Assembly (NCBI GenBank): GCA_944390005.1 | Contig: CALXOJ010000003.1 | Location: forward strand, 62,001 to 126,000 | DNA: 64,000 bases | Direction of reading: 5' to 3' | Source of the DNA: an uncultured Spirochaetota bacterium | GTDB taxonomy: Bacteria; Spirochaetota; Spirochaetia; JAFGXN01 | In this document: positions 22,956-55,206 of the stretch, one piece after another | How the letters are laid out: every line of letters starts with the position of its first letter | How positions within the stretch are numbered: the first letter of the stretch is position 1 | Program-made: the position numbers and the translations under genes | Notes under the pieces: model-generated | Database searches by the model: none | What the model was told of the DNA's origin: nothing | The model's input: only the letters and a program-made list of their open reading frames with translations

Positions 22956-22982
22956 TTGATTTTTTTTTTTTTTTTTTACAAT
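22956..22982 (+). promoter_or_regulatory. Promoter with pure poly-T spacer, candidate phase-variation switch
   Basis: TTGATT (22956-22961) and TACAAT (22977-22982) are separated by exactly 15 T, so the whole spacer is one homopolymer (the T run is 18 long, including bases of both boxes). Fifteen is shorter than the optimal 17; slippage adding two T would strengthen the promoter. The transcript would start near 22989 and carry AGGAGG before the lipoprotein ATG. Confidence 0.55.
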
Positions 22983-23038: not shown

Positions 23039-24232
23039 ATGAAAAGAGGTTTAACGGTTGTTTTGGCGGCTCTGGTGCTGCTGACAGGGTGTGAATTGCG
23101 TTATCGGGCTATCAGCAAACTGGACATTACCGATGCCGAGAGTCTTTATCTGGCGCCGGAAGCGCGGGGCACGGGGAACGTGATGTTTAAAATTACGAAA
23201 GAGGGCGCGATTGTCGAGGTGTCGTACACGAGCAACAGCGGCATAAAGGCATCGACCAAAAGACTGAAACCGGAGGCCATCTATCATGCCAACGACGAGT
23301 ACATGGTTGTGGTGTTTCGGAATTATAGTATAGCCTGTCTCGTTTCCAAAAAGACGGGGGCAGTCTATTCGTTGGAGAATGTGGGCGTGCCTAATGATTA
23401 TCAGTTGATGTTCGTTAATTCGTCGCCCGTTCTGTCCGACGGAAAGAACAATATTTATTTCAAAACTAAGTCTTATAATCCCGACAATCCGGATAAATGG
23501 AATGAACTCTACCGCATCGATGTGTCGAATCCCGAAAAGGTGACTGCCAAACCGCTGACGGGTCCCCAAGATAACCAGATTGACGCTTTTGCCGTCGATC
23601 CGGCCGGAAATGTGGTTTATAACTATCCCAATGGAACTCGTTTGGCTTTTGCCGACGGCGGCTTTGCTAATTGTAATGACACATCTTATTGGACGGCGCC
23701 GGACGGGAAGCTGTATTGTGGGGGCTCTCTGATTTACCGGCTGGATATTGATGGGAAAAATGTCGCGGAGACGGAATACGGGAGATTGAATCTTTATAAT
23801 TCACATATATATATCTATGTCGACAGTTATTATTTGACAATGGGCGGTCGGGCATATATTCTGTATCGCGACGGACAATTATTCGAAGTTTACAATCCCG
23901 AGGGCAAGCCGCATTTGGTTGAGGGAGTTCCCGCTTTGACAAACATTCAGGCGGTGACGCAGTCGGAAGAGGAGCTGTTTATTGCCGGCGAGAGCAACGA
24001 TGAGCCGCGGGTGATTCGGGTCAATCCGGTGACGGGTGACTGGAGCGATCTCTACACACCCGGGGATTACGAAGTGTATAATATGGTTTATGCGGGCGGC
24101 CGGCTGACGGTCAATGCGATGCGGATGAACGACGGGACGATTATCATGGGCGAACTCGACGAAACGGGTGAGATGAAAGTGCTCGACGAAACGTCGAACA
24201 GCAAGGTGCTTTATCTGACGAGGATCAGGTAA
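23039..24232 (+). CDS. Lipoprotein of unknown function behind a poly-T promoter
   Basis: A 397-residue lipoprotein. The signal peptide has lipobox LTGC (Cys at residue 18). The mature part is beta-strand-rich with repeated short blades (e.g. YSIACLVSKKTGAVYSLENV, YILYRDGQLFEVYNPEGK, LFIAGESNDEPRVIRVNP), suggesting a beta-propeller-like fold that cannot be assigned to a family by eye. AGGAGG lies 7 nt before the ATG. It is a single-gene unit, ended by a strong terminator at 24258. The homopolymer in its promoter suggests on/off or graded expression at the cell surface. Confidence 0.75.
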   Translation: MKRGLTVVLAALVLLTGCELRYRAISKLDITDAESLYLAPEARGTGNVMFKITKEGAIVEVSYTSNSGIKASTKRLKPEAIYHANDEYMVVVFRNYSIACLVSKKTGAVYSLENVGVPNDYQLMFVNSSPVLSDGKNNIYFKTKSYNPDNPDKWNELYRIDVSNPEKVTAKPLTGPQDNQIDAFAVDPAGNVVYNYPNGTRLAFADGGFANCNDTSYWTAPDGKLYCGGSLIYRLDIDGKNVAETEYGRLNLYNSHIYIYVDSYYLTMGGRAYILYRDGQLFEVYNPEGKPHLVEGVPALTNIQAVTQSEEELFIAGESNDEPRVIRVNPVTGDWSDLYTPGDYEVYNMVYAGGRLTVNAMRMNDGTIIMGELDETGEMKVLDETSNSKVLYLTRIR

Positions 24233-50043: not shown

Positions 50044-50453
50044 CTTCTTTCTGTTTTCATTTGGGCGTCCCGACCGCCTGCGGCGGCCGTCGGCGCCCTC
50101 CGGACCCGGTCTGCCCGACGGGCAGACGGCCTTACGGCCTCCTCCGGGCGCCTGACGCGCTTACGGCTCGGGCCGTTTTTATTTGCGAATCAAATTTTCC
50201 TTCTGAGGCGCTCTCCTTTCAACGAATTTTATCCAAGGGCGCTTTTTTTGTCATTGAAGATGCGTTGCTTTTTATTGCAACTGCCGATTTGCCGATAAAC
50301 TCCGACGGTTTTTAAAGCGATAAACCGCAAAACACCTCAGTGCCGAAGCTGCGCCTCTGCCGGCAAACTGTTTTCGCCCGCAATTCGGTTAATTTTGAAC
50401 ACTTCAAAAATAAGAGACAGTAAATATAATTTTAAATTTAATTTTCTTTAAAT
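50044..50453. other. Intergenic region with GC-rich hairpin cluster
   Basis: No gene is seen. Bases 50063-50180 hold a series of GC-rich hairpins: a long one bounded by GGGCG and CGCCC, a perfect GTCTGCCC-GAC-GGGCAGAC, a small GGCC-TTAC-GGCC, and a final terminator. The rest (50181-50453) is ordinary non-coding sequence without recognised motifs. Confidence 0.6.
50163..50180 (+). terminator. Rho-independent terminator after the ferredoxin-like gene
   Basis: ACGGC-TCGG-GCCGT followed by TTTT, the last hairpin of the GC-rich cluster, 120 nt after the stop. Confidence 0.65.
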
Positions 50454-50476
50454 GGGGGGGGGGGGTAAAATATAAC
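50447..50476 (+). promoter_or_regulatory. Promoter containing a 12-G tract, candidate phase-variation switch
   Basis: TTTAAA (50447-50452) and TATAAC (50471-50476) are 18 nt apart and the spacer holds 12 consecutive G (50454-50465). An alternative -10, TAAAAT (50466-50471), would adjoin the tract. Either way, changes in G number alter promoter spacing. AAGGAGA follows before the ATG at 50496. Confidence 0.5.
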
Positions 50477-50495
50477 CGATGAGAAGGAGACCCAT

Positions 50496-53279
50496 ATGGT
50501 AAAAAAAGCAATTTTATTTTTTACAGTGCTTTTCATGATTTTCGGCTGCGAGCCGACAGTTTATGAAGGAGCCGAAAAGGTTGAAAATCCGACAAAGTCG
50601 CGTTCGGGATATTTTAATACCGATGTGACGTTGGGAAACGACGTTGTGTCGGTGTTTAATCAATACGGAGAATCCGTCTCCGGATTTGTATTGAGCGAGG
50701 AAGGAGAATATACAATCACCTACACCGACGGAAAGACAGAGGAAATCGTCATCGACAAAACCCCGCCGGTAATCAACGGTTTTACCAACACGGAACAAAA
50801 TCTCAATTTGGCAAAGGCAACGGAAATTGTCGATAACCTCGGAGCGAATGCCGTTTCCGATAACCTGAGCGGTTGGGATTACGAAATGACGGCAACGTGG
50901 AAAGACGGACGGGATCCGTTTAAAGAAGGTCCGGGCGATTATGTGCGCGTCTACGTGGTGTACGACCGCGCGGGCAACGCCTCCGAACCGTTTGAGTGGG
51001 AAATTACCGCCTACCGTTTTGAAGGAGGCGACGGGGAAGAGGTTGCCGTGACACTGAAAGAAAACGGTACGGTGTTGGACGGCAGTGATGTCGTATGGAA
51101 AAAGGAACTGACCTCCGTTACCCTGAAGGCGGAGGCGGCGGGCGGAGACGGTACGTATACGTATTCCTGGTCGGTGAATGACAAACTCATGGAAGGAGAA
51201 ACGGAAAATACCCTGACGTTGAGTAATCCTGAGGAAATGCTGTATTCGGTTACCGTTAAAGTCAGGGACGGCGGCGGTATGCCGGCGGTAAAGACCGCGG
51301 CGGTCGGATTTGACAAAACTCCGCCCGTGATTCAGCGCGGTCCGAAGGTGCTGACCAATTATACCTCCGAAGAACGGCTGAATTTTACCGAATCCCTTGC
51401 CGATTTACGCATTTCCGAATCCGGTTCGGGAGTAGCGTCCGTTGAGGGCAGTTATACGGATAGCCCGGGCGAAATCGAACTCAATAAGCCGTATGAAAGA
51501 ACGGTTACAGTCACCGATAAGGCCGGCAACACAAGCGGACCGTTTGTGTATCAAATCATATTTGAAGGAACCGCAAAGGAAGAGGACGAAGCGGAGCTGA
51601 CGGGAGAAAAGGGCGCGGCGGTTTCAACAGAGAATATGAAAATTCCGAGTGAAGCGCAGGTGGAGTGGATGCAGATGGAACAGTATGCGTTCATCCATTG
51701 GGGACCGAATACATTCGCCAATGTCGAATGGGGCGACGGGTATCCGTCGGGAGCGGATTCGTTCCGGCCGACGCGCGGAGCCGATGAAATCACTCAGGGC
51801 TGGATCGACGACGTTGTGACTGCCGGTATGACCGGTATAATTTTAACCGCCAAACACCACGACGGGTTCTGCCTGTGGGATACGGTGACCACCGAATACT
51901 CGGTCTGTAAAAAAGGCGAAGGCTACGAATATTATCAGGACGATGTACTGAAAGCGCTGATTGAGAATATGCGCGATTACAACCGGGCAAATACGGAAAA
52001 ACCGCTGAGGCTGGGCGTTTACGTCTCTCCGTGGGACAGAAATCACTGGACTTACGGAGGAACGGACAGCAGCGGAAAATATCCGTATTTGGAATACGTG
52101 TTCCGCACGCAGGTGACGGAAGTGGTCGAATATGTGGAAAAATACGGTAAAGGCGATGTGATTCTCTTTGAGTTGTGGCTTGACGGCGCCAATGAGTTAG
52201 GGGGGTGGTACGGCGGAAAATTGTATGCCGAACATGTATCGCAGGACGGAGCTTCGGTTTCCGTTCCTATTCTGGATAACGGGCGCGCCGATGTCAGCCG
52301 GTTTACCCAGAATTACAATTACGCCTCCAAATTGAATTACAATCTCTCCCACCGCAATGTCAGCGCGCGTCCGTCGGACTGGCGCAGCCGCATTTACTCC
52401 GTGGCTCAGGAGGTGGTCGACAGTTACGAGCCGTGTGAAATTATGGTTTTCGGAACTCATATCCGCTGGGTCGGCAACGAACAGGGCTGGGCGGATCGTA
52501 CCAACTGGATTATGCCTGATGATGTGACGACTCCGTGGAGCGACAAGGCTCAGACTCACGGACACGAAAACGGAAGTAAGGTTATGCCGGCCGAAGCGGA
52601 CATGAAGACGCAGAACGGCTGGTTTTACACGGCGGGAGAGGACAAGGGGGCGGCCAAAATGATTGAGTTCTGGTACCGCACGGTCGGACGCAACGCGACG
52701 CTGCTGCTGAACTTCTCTCCGGATCAGTCGGGACAGATTCCGTCCTATAACCTGACTTCGGCGCAGACGATGTGGAAGACGGTTTCCTCCGATTTGGACG
52801 ACAATCTGACCGCGCGCGCCTACAAAGTCTCGGCTAGCGATGTGCGCGACAATTGCGTTGAATATTCGCCGTACAACGTCATCGACGGCAGCTACGACAC
52901 CTACTGGACGGTCGGCGACGGACGCGGCAGTAACAGTGAAGGTGATGAATGGATTCAGATTTCCTTCTCAGACGCCGTCTCCTTCAACCGCGTCGTGCTG
53001 CAGGAGAACATCCGCTTCGGACAGCGGGTCAAAGTGTTTAAGGTCGAGTACAGAAACGGCGGAAGCGATGAATGGAAAATGCTCACTTATCCGGATATGC
53101 CGACGTCCATCAGCGGCGACAACAATAATCCCGACGTGACGACCACCATCGGTTACAAACGGATTTTAAGAAGCAACACCGTCAGCGCGACGGACGTGCG
53201 GGTGACTTTCACGGATTACCGCAACAGTCAGAGGGTGCCGGTTGTGCTTTCCGAGTTCGGACTGTATCTGGCGGATTAA
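50496..53279 (+). CDS. Multidomain GH29 alpha-L-fucosidase lipoprotein
   Basis: A 927-residue surface lipoprotein predicted to remove alpha-L-fucose from host or dietary glycans. Order: signal peptide with lipobox IFGC (Cys at 18); two to three Ig-like modules marked by repeated DKTPPVI (about 30-365); the GH29 catalytic barrel (about 385-755) with FIHWGPNTFANVEWGDGYPS, AKHHDGFCLW and the nucleophile Asp in LFELWLDGAN (near 563); and a C-terminal F5/8 type C (CBM32-like) carbohydrate-binding domain (about 770-927). It is co-transcribed with the Big2 lipoprotein 16 nt downstream. The poly-G promoter suggests variable expression. Confidence 0.9.
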   Translation: MVKKAILFFTVLFMIFGCEPTVYEGAEKVENPTKSRSGYFNTDVTLGNDVVSVFNQYGESVSGFVLSEEGEYTITYTDGKTEEIVIDKTPPVINGFTNTEQNLNLAKATEIVDNLGANAVSDNLSGWDYEMTATWKDGRDPFKEGPGDYVRVYVVYDRAGNASEPFEWEITAYRFEGGDGEEVAVTLKENGTVLDGSDVVWKKELTSVTLKAEAAGGDGTYTYSWSVNDKLMEGETENTLTLSNPEEMLYSVTVKVRDGGGMPAVKTAAVGFDKTPPVIQRGPKVLTNYTSEERLNFTESLADLRISESGSGVASVEGSYTDSPGEIELNKPYERTVTVTDKAGNTSGPFVYQIIFEGTAKEEDEAELTGEKGAAVSTENMKIPSEAQVEWMQMEQYAFIHWGPNTFANVEWGDGYPSGADSFRPTRGADEITQGWIDDVVTAGMTGIILTAKHHDGFCLWDTVTTEYSVCKKGEGYEYYQDDVLKALIENMRDYNRANTEKPLRLGVYVSPWDRNHWTYGGTDSSGKYPYLEYVFRTQVTEVVEYVEKYGKGDVILFELWLDGANELGGWYGGKLYAEHVSQDGASVSVPILDNGRADVSRFTQNYNYASKLNYNLSHRNVSARPSDWRSRIYSVAQEVVDSYEPCEIMVFGTHIRWVGNEQGWADRTNWIMPDDVTTPWSDKAQTHGHENGSKVMPAEADMKTQNGWFYTAGEDKGAAKMIEFWYRTVGRNATLLLNFSPDQSGQIPSYNLTSAQTMWKTVSSDLDDNLTARAYKVSASDVRDNCVEYSPYNVIDGSYDTYWTVGDGRGSNSEGDEWIQISFSDAVSFNRVVLQENIRFGQRVKVFKVEYRNGGSDEWKMLTYPDMPTSISGDNNNPDVTTTIGYKRILRSNTVSATDVRVTFTDYRNSQRVPVVLSEFGLYLAD

Positions 53280-53295: not shown

Positions 53296-55167
53296 ATGAA
53301 AAAAACGGTTTTGATGATGATGACGGCGGCGGCGCTGCTCTTCGGCTGCAACGAAAGCCGGTCTTTACTGACAAAGATTACGATTACCTCCGACGTGAAG
53401 GAGGTGTATGTGGGGTCGACGGCGCAGCTGACGGCGAGCGTGGAGCCTGCGGACGTGCCTGAGGCGGTGGTATGGAGCAGCAGCGATGAGAAGACGGCGT
53501 CAGTCGACCAGAAAGGAGTGGTGACGGGAATCAAGGAGGGAACGGTCACGATTAAGCTGGCGTCAAAGGCGGATGAGAATATGTGCGCCGAGACGCAGAT
53601 TGCGGTGGTGAAAAACCCGAATCCCGTGACGGTCGCCTCTGTGGTGATCACGGACGGGGAAATGGTCGCCGGGGAAGAGGTGACGGTGAAGGCCGCGGTG
53701 GACGAAAACGGGGCGTATACGGCTCAGAAGGCGTTCGGTGCGACGGTGAGTTTTTCCGACGGTTCGCAGGGACGCTATGATGAGACGGTGAGCTGGGTTT
53801 TGGGAGAGTCGGAGCCGGAAGGAGCGTTTACGCTGTCGCAGGACGGAGTGCTGAGCTTCAGCCTTGCCGCGGAAGAGGCGTCCGGAGAGGCCGCGCTGGG
53901 AAGCGCGGTGGTCGAGGCGCTCTCCAATTACGACGGAACGACGGAGGCGGCGGTGAGGGTCAGCGTTGTGGACGCGGAGGCGCCGGATTCGCTGGAAATT
54001 GCGGACGCCTCCGGATACGGTTTTGAAGGCGGAGAGCTGGCGCTGTTTGAGGGAGGCAGCGGCGTTACGGCGCAGGTGTTTGTCAATCCGGTGGGCGAGC
54101 CGCAGGAGGCTGTGTGGAGCTCGGAGCCGGCGGGAGCCGTAAAGATTCTTCTGCCCGAAGAACCGGAGACGGAAGCGGGGGAGACCCCCGCGGGGAAAGT
54201 TCTGCTGAAAAAGGGAACGGTTGAGGAAGGCGTTTCCGAAGCCGTTGTCACCGTCACCCGCGGAGGCGTGAGCGCCCGCCTGCCGGTGAGTTTTCCCGAA
54301 GCGGAGATTATCCCCGGCGGTTATGAAGGCAATAACTGGATTGAAGGCGAAACTCTGACGCTGACTGCCGCCGGATCGTTGTTTGAGGTTACGGGAGTCG
54401 ACGGATCTGCCGGTACGGTCTCCGACAGTGTTTGGACCGTACCCGCGCCGGCCGGCAGCGCTGATAGCGAACAGAAAACCGTAACCTGGCAATGCCGCTC
54501 TCTTCTGGGCGGGGAAACGTTTACAGTTTCGCTTGAAGGAAAAGTCTGGAATGATACGCACGTGCGCTACGACGACGGTATTTTTAAAACGGTCAAGGTC
54601 TTTGATTTTACGGTGGAGAATGAGGCAAAAAATGCGGGCGTTAAGGTTAAACGGGGCGTCAGCGGAACTTGGAATGAGAAATCAAATTGGGATACGGTGA
54701 CCTACTCCGACGGTGAAGGATATACCTTTACGACAAATAATGGAGACGGCGTGCGGTTTGTCTTTCCCGAGACCGACGGCGATCTTGATTTCGAATTGAT
54801 AATGGTTGAAACGAAGTGGGACAACAGCAATGCCAATATTCACCTGTCATGGTGGTACAGCAATGCCGATATTTACGGATATTCCTTTTATAAAGGCGGG
54901 AAAAGCTTTTTTATGTTGGACAGTTACAATTACAGCGCGTCGAATGGGTTTGACGCATCCGTTACGGCAAATACCTTCAACCGTTTCTATGCTTTTGACG
55001 ACGGAGCAAACCACTCGGGACGGGTCAACGACGGCGATGTAAAATCTTTTTCTTTTTCCGACAGCCATACGCTTGATTCGTTTACAAGCATTCAGCTGGA
55101 ATTCAATGAAGGCGCATCCTGTACCTACACCATCAAAACCGTCGCCTTTTACAAGGAGGCACAATAA
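53296..55167 (+). CDS. Big2-domain surface lipoprotein
   Basis: A 623-residue lipoprotein. The signal peptide ends in lipobox LFGC (Cys at residue 18). A clear Big2 domain (about 30-105; VYVGSTAQLTASVEPADVPE, VDQKGVVTGIKEGTVTI) is followed by further Ig-like, Thr/Val/Glu-rich modules and a C-terminal beta-sandwich (about 450-623) with aromatic residues (HLSWWYSNADIYGYSFYKGG) that could bind carbohydrate. ATG 53296 after AAGGAG is preferred to the in-frame ATG 53242, which lies inside the fucosidase gene. Bases 53400-54280 are richer in GC and GAG/GCG codons than the surroundings, suggesting repeat expansion or transfer. It probably displays or binds glycans together with the fucosidase. Confidence 0.82.
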   Translation: MKKTVLMMMTAAALLFGCNESRSLLTKITITSDVKEVYVGSTAQLTASVEPADVPEAVVWSSSDEKTASVDQKGVVTGIKEGTVTIKLASKADENMCAETQIAVVKNPNPVTVASVVITDGEMVAGEEVTVKAAVDENGAYTAQKAFGATVSFSDGSQGRYDETVSWVLGESEPEGAFTLSQDGVLSFSLAAEEASGEAALGSAVVEALSNYDGTTEAAVRVSVVDAEAPDSLEIADASGYGFEGGELALFEGGSGVTAQVFVNPVGEPQEAVWSSEPAGAVKILLPEEPETEAGETPAGKVLLKKGTVEEGVSEAVVTVTRGGVSARLPVSFPEAEIIPGGYEGNNWIEGETLTLTAAGSLFEVTGVDGSAGTVSDSVWTVPAPAGSADSEQKTVTWQCRSLLGGETFTVSLEGKVWNDTHVRYDDGIFKTVKVFDFTVENEAKNAGVKVKRGVSGTWNEKSNWDTVTYSDGEGYTFTTNNGDGVRFVFPETDGDLDFELIMVETKWDNSNANIHLSWWYSNADIYGYSFYKGGKSFFMLDSYNYSASNGFDASVTANTFNRFYAFDDGANHSGRVNDGDVKSFSFSDSHTLDSFTSIQLEFNEGASCTYTIKTVAFYKEAQ

Positions 55168-55181
55168 TATTTTTCTCCCGC

Positions 55182-55206
55182 GGCGCCCGTAAGGGCGCCT
55201 TTTTTT
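55182..55206 (+). terminator. Rho-independent terminator of the lipoprotein operon
   Basis: GGCGCCC-GTAA-GGGCGCC followed by seven T. Confidence 0.95.

Follow-up and report, generated by a model that had tools for sequence, protein, structure and literature searches.

A tract of twelve G residues (G12) in the promoter region of an operon for a predicted GH29 alpha-L-fucosidase lipoprotein and a Big_2 lipoprotein is, in our judgement, likely to be a contingency (phase-variation) element that alters the spacing of the -35 and -10 boxes and so switches the operon. The operon lies in the window, the whole stretch of 64,000 nucleotides analysed here, from an uncultured spirochaete. Slippage of the replicating strands would add or drop G residues in the tract, the G count would vary the spacing of the weak -35 and -10 boxes around 17-18 bp, and transcription of the operon would be turned up or down, randomly in each single cell. 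The outcome would be a population with mixed repertoires of surface glycosidases and lipoproteins, in which cells probably switch their tract-bearing surface proteins on and off at random. We infer that the tract slips in the host species, that its length changes transcription and hence expression, that both lipoproteins lie at the surface, and that the switching brings a benefit. The features of the locus are listed below.

50403-50430, + strand: competing promoter candidate upstream of the tract, TTCAAA-16-TATAAT; alternatively, an A/T-rich upstream element (promoter scoring)
50447-50476, + strand: tract-spanning promoter candidate TTTAAA-18-TATAAC, with boxes at 50447-50452 and 50471-50476
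50454-50465, + strand: G12, putative slippage tract (sequence; separate length class genome-wide)
-10 box at 50466-50471, + strand: overlapping alternative tract-spanning pair TTTTCT-18-TAAAAT
50484-50489, + strand: Shine-Dalgarno AAGGAG (sequence)
50496-53279, + strand: predicted lipoprotein of 927 aa with an Ig-like region, GH29 alpha-L-fucosidase and F5/8 type C domains (profile and structure-sequence matches)
53296-55167, + strand: the unit's second gene, for a predicted Big_2 lipoprotein of 623 aa, with its own Shine-Dalgarno
About 55182-55205, + strand: intrinsic terminator GGCGCC...GGGCGCC followed by T7 (sequence)

No other G run in the window exceeds 6. Downstream of the tract the sequence reads TAAAATATAACCGATGAGAAGGAGACCCATATG, and the gap from the tract end to the ATG at 50496 is 30 nt. 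The first-pass annotation had placed a 12-G tract between a -35-like and a -10-like box, ahead of an operon for a glycan-cleaving and a Big2 lipoprotein. Both statements agree with what we find: G12 lies between TTTAAA and TATAAC with a spacer of 18, and a GH29 lipoprotein gene is followed by a Big_2 lipoprotein gene and a terminator. The -35 box of the tract-spanning pair is poor, and against shuffled flanks the pair reaches p 0.09; taken alone this is a weak promoter candidate, backed by the other loci. The upstream pair at 50403-50430, which the first reading had missed, outscores it both here and at the paralogous operon, and would place the tract in the leader. On that basis transcription might start at the upstream promoter, with the tract inside the 5' leader and acting post-transcriptionally, through RNA folding, ribosome access or a small RNA, a mode of action reported for Helicobacter pylori, where the tlpB leader contains a G repeat. 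The other promoter-type tracts make this unlikely, as set out below.

The assignment of the first gene product as a predicted GH29 alpha-L-fucosidase lipoprotein draws on several matches. Its lipobox is FGC, at residue 18. The GH29 profile PF01120 scores 69.7 bits against a cut-off of 25.2, and the protein matches the solved GH29 enzyme 5k9h (E 1.8e-53), with WLDGAN (residues 561-566) aligned to WFDGAN; we take the WxDGAN motif to be the site of the catalytic aspartate. Both genes encode a lipobox cysteine and a signal peptide, MVKKAILFFTVLFMIFGC and MKKTVLMMMTAAALLFGC, read directly from the sequence. Since the Big_2 gene starts only 16 nt past the fucosidase stop and is followed by the terminator, the two genes make up a single short unit, whose promoter region contains the tract.

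Tract length was set against a background of 464 kb of the genome, made up of 400 kb of sampled stretches and the 64-kb window. Among G/C runs in this background there are 189 of length 5, 21 of length 6 and two of length 7; lengths 8-11 are absent, and the only longer run is the G12 of the window. Genome-wide, 12 G/C runs of at least 9 nt were found, all of 11-17 nt (12, 11, 17, 13, 13, 11, 12, 13, 13, 13, 11 and 13). Because the run counts drop off at 7 with none at 8-11, these 12 tracts form a separate length class, beyond chance, and G12 is longer than chance allows, as expected of a spacer-type homopolymer promoter of the porA or tp0126 type. MutS and MutL are both present, and we therefore rejected a lost mismatch-repair system as the driver.

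The 12 tracts are given below with their tract-spanning -35/-10 pairs, where reported, and p values against shuffled flanks; pairs were scored in the orientation of the gene downstream (the GtrA remnant in the case of L034).

L031: promoter-type, window locus, G12 before the GH29 fucosidase lipoprotein gene; p 0.091
L032: promoter-type, before a sulfatase lipoprotein gene; TTGACA-19-AATAAT, p 0.003
L033: promoter-type, G17 before a Big_2 lipoprotein gene; p 0.25
L034:6001-6160: C13 in the promoter-like site TTAAGT-18-TATAAT (p 0.026), before a GtrA-like gene truncated after about 45 residues
L035:5812-5824: G13 in frame in a GGDEF (diguanylate cyclase) gene, read as glycines at the protein's C terminus
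L036: in a lipoprotein reading frame, just past the lipobox
L037: promoter-type, before a GH29 paralogue lipoprotein gene; TTAAAT-17-TATAAT, p 0.029
L038: promoter-type, before a third GH29 lipoprotein gene; p 0.13
L039:6001-6013: C13, in frame as assembled, immediately following the ATG of a GT2 glycosyltransferase gene (MHQPPPPQ...)
L040: promoter-type, before a Big_2 lipoprotein gene; TTGACT-18-TATCCT, p 0.012
L041: beside the start codon of a lipoprotein gene
L042: promoter-type, C13 before a lipoprotein gene, poly-C on the gene strand; TTGACA-18-TATATT, p 0.002, the best-scoring promoter

Nine of the 12 tracts belong to lipoprotein genes, where the background rate is 27 of 376 ORFs (about 7%; an approximate figure, with lipoproteins called by a simple lipobox rule), giving P about 1e-8. 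All three GH29 lipoprotein genes (L031, L037 and L038) bear a tract. Near a fourth GH29 gene, which is on contig C2 and common to the sister species, no G/C run of at least 9 was found. Most of the 12 would serve as spacers of lipoprotein promoters and a few would act within reading frames or beside a ribosome-binding site. The in-frame tracts of the lipoprotein, GT2 and GGDEF genes are the classic translational counterpart of promoter tracts, and the GT2 tract is likely a translational switch; L034 looks like a switch promoter that has been orphaned. The genome also contains a dispersed repeat some 150 bp long (L032:6444-6613), of which there are at least 22 copies here and 27 in that of the sister species. 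Copies in direct orientation stand on either side of the L040 lipoprotein gene, and none was found in the other genus of the family.

Combining seven independent loci, the tract-spanning pairs exceed the shuffles with P about 1e-6. Spacers are 17-19 at five loci despite differing tract lengths and flanking offsets, and in six of the seven lipoprotein promoters the tract ends 28-30 nt 5' of the ATG, a distance with room for no more than a -10 box followed by a very short leader. This short, fixed distance suits a -10 box better than a position within a leader. Most of the other promoter-type tracts, moreover, have no upstream pair of the kind seen at the window locus and score best across the tract, and poly-C occupies the same position at L042 and L034, which is unexpected if G residues were acting in the RNA. 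A strictly G-strand mechanism is likewise unlikely given these poly-C tracts. Spacer length is our preferred explanation of how the tracts act.

Contig C7 carries a second copy of the fucosidase-Big_2 unit, likewise with a G12 tract. The two share the following block.

About 50250-50790, + strand: promoter, tract, signal peptide and first codons near-identical to the C7 operon (93-100% per 100 columns)

Outside this block the copies are about 57-85% identical. Codons 1-60 contain one synonymous difference, and later 60-codon blocks contain 10-21. The near-identical head and diverged remainder point to gene conversion of the switch head (promoter, tract and signal peptide) between the two paralogues. 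As its -10 box the tract-spanning pair has TATAAT on C7 and TATAAC in the window, so that the window promoter may be the weaker of the two.

Homopolymers of the other base pair occur as well. A poly-T promoter at 22956 had been claimed in the first-pass annotation, and the tract is real: T18 occupies 22960-22977 between TTGATT and TACAAT (22956-22982, spacer 15), 5' of a lipoprotein gene at 23039. Ten poly-T/A tracts of at least 12 were found genome-wide, several of them before lipoprotein genes, including the sulfatase-like L179. They may form a second class of slippage tract.

The organism was placed by comparison of its Lon protein. The closest Lon among the genomes compared is that of an uncultured Spirochaetes MAG, CALXKN01 (BRZ_BB__bin28), at 97%, and the next are at about 61-62%; of these genomes, one is another species of the genus, one belongs to the family and the rest share the class only. 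From these distances and memberships, the host is an order-level uncultured spirochaete lineage and not Treponema. A scan of named GTDB genomes with the fucosidase protein found no relative. In the sister species, tracts are present at the orthologous GGDEF, GT2 and L042 sites, and at other lipoproteins (L049, L065, L068 and, in frame, L069). Its contigs mostly end at the tracts in noisy sequence, with a break at the GGDEF (L035) site too, so its tract lengths are unreliable and we drew nothing on variation from them. In the family's other genus there are just four runs, each 9 or 10 long.

In 395 Spirochaetia genomes, a hand tally gave about 102 matches to TTGA-N-G9-N-TANNNT against 19 for the reversed control, and about 57 against 31 for the C version; the tally and its test count matches of related genomes as independent. 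One genome from another spirochaete family, a single contig of 2.89 Mb (G374), has 14 TTGA-polyG-TANNNT matches (L223-L232), many reading TTGACA-polyG-TATAAT and several preceding small lipoprotein genes. The occurrence of the poly-G layout in an order-level relative, together with the class-wide excess, suggests that the device is widespread in Spirochaetia.

These data bear on two further readings. The much stronger enrichment of the G-strand version in the hand tallies would suit a tract that acts through DNA structure (a G-quadruplex) or a bound regulator rather than through spacing, and at tprE, tprG and tprJ of T. pallidum a homologue of CRP works jointly with the length of the poly-G (PMC7864442). 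We regard this as very improbable here: the best-scoring promoter, L042, carries poly-C on the gene strand, and the spacers of the better-scoring loci cluster at 17-19. Least probable of all, to the point that we give it almost no weight, is a passive or artefactual homopolymer without regulatory effect, arising by assembly error, sequencing poly-G or chance. Poly-G is a known sequencing artefact, and in the sister assembly most tracts lie at noisy contig ends, but 11 of the 12 tracts here are inside contigs with intact flanks (the other is 50 bp from a contig end), the tracts are concentrated at lipoprotein genes, and genomes in one long contig also carry TTGACA-polyG-TATAAT.

A slipping tract in the promoter spacer, the reading we favour, has known counterparts. 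In T. pallidum, tp0126 (an OmpW homologue) has poly-G between its -35 and -10 boxes, and transcription is best at 17 nt (PMC7864442). The window locus resembles it as a putative poly-G spacer of a spirochaete at a surface-protein gene (here predicted), but belongs to another lineage and would control a glycosidase lipoprotein operon, with a length effect that is a prediction. At tprE, tprG, tprJ and tprL, outer-membrane protein genes, poly-G near the start site varies in length in vivo and affects output (PMC7864442); the likeness is again poly-G near the start of (predicted) surface-protein genes. The tprL tract overlaps the -10 region and leaves the spacing unaltered (PMC7864442), whereas the tract here is placed as a putative spacer. 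The suggestion that a T. pallidum-like poly-G device operates on carbohydrate-active lipoproteins is supported by the nine lipoprotein loci, the spacer placement and the near-constant ATG distance, and by its presence in the sister species and other Spirochaetia, though the host itself is not Treponema. Beyond the spirochaetes, by the account in PMC7864442, Neisseria meningitidis porA and opc have a G or C homopolymer in or at the promoter, and porA is the classical spacer case, with spacing-dependent output. The homopolymer promoter is alike, in an unrelated phylum and with other target genes. In Bacteroides, phase-variable polysaccharide-utilisation and capsule loci switch by DNA inversion; random switching of glycan-related surface functions is shared with the present proposal, in which homopolymer slippage takes the place of inversion. 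Our literature search, judged by title and abstract, found no paper on phase-variable fucosidases. The proposed mechanism is thus known, and what is new is the lineage, the GH29, sulfatase and Big_2 targets, and the converted switch head.

More tentatively, and with somewhat less than even confidence, we suggest that this order-level lineage outside Treponema has a genome-wide slippage phasome made up largely of lipidated enzymes of glycan degradation and of lipoproteins with Ig domains (three GH29 fucosidases, sulfatases and Big_2 proteins), which would diversify glycan foraging rather than, or besides, antigens, and through which gene conversion would spread the switch head. The 12 tracts provide a list of testable loci, and their anatomy gives a search rule for switchable genes in this uncultured spirochaete genus: a tract inside a spacer of 17-19 bp, some 30 nt 5' of the ATG. 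Among spirochaetes, switching by poly-G promoters has been treated chiefly as a means of antigen variation in T. pallidum; on glycosidase lipoproteins, the same device may serve metabolic or adhesive diversity too.
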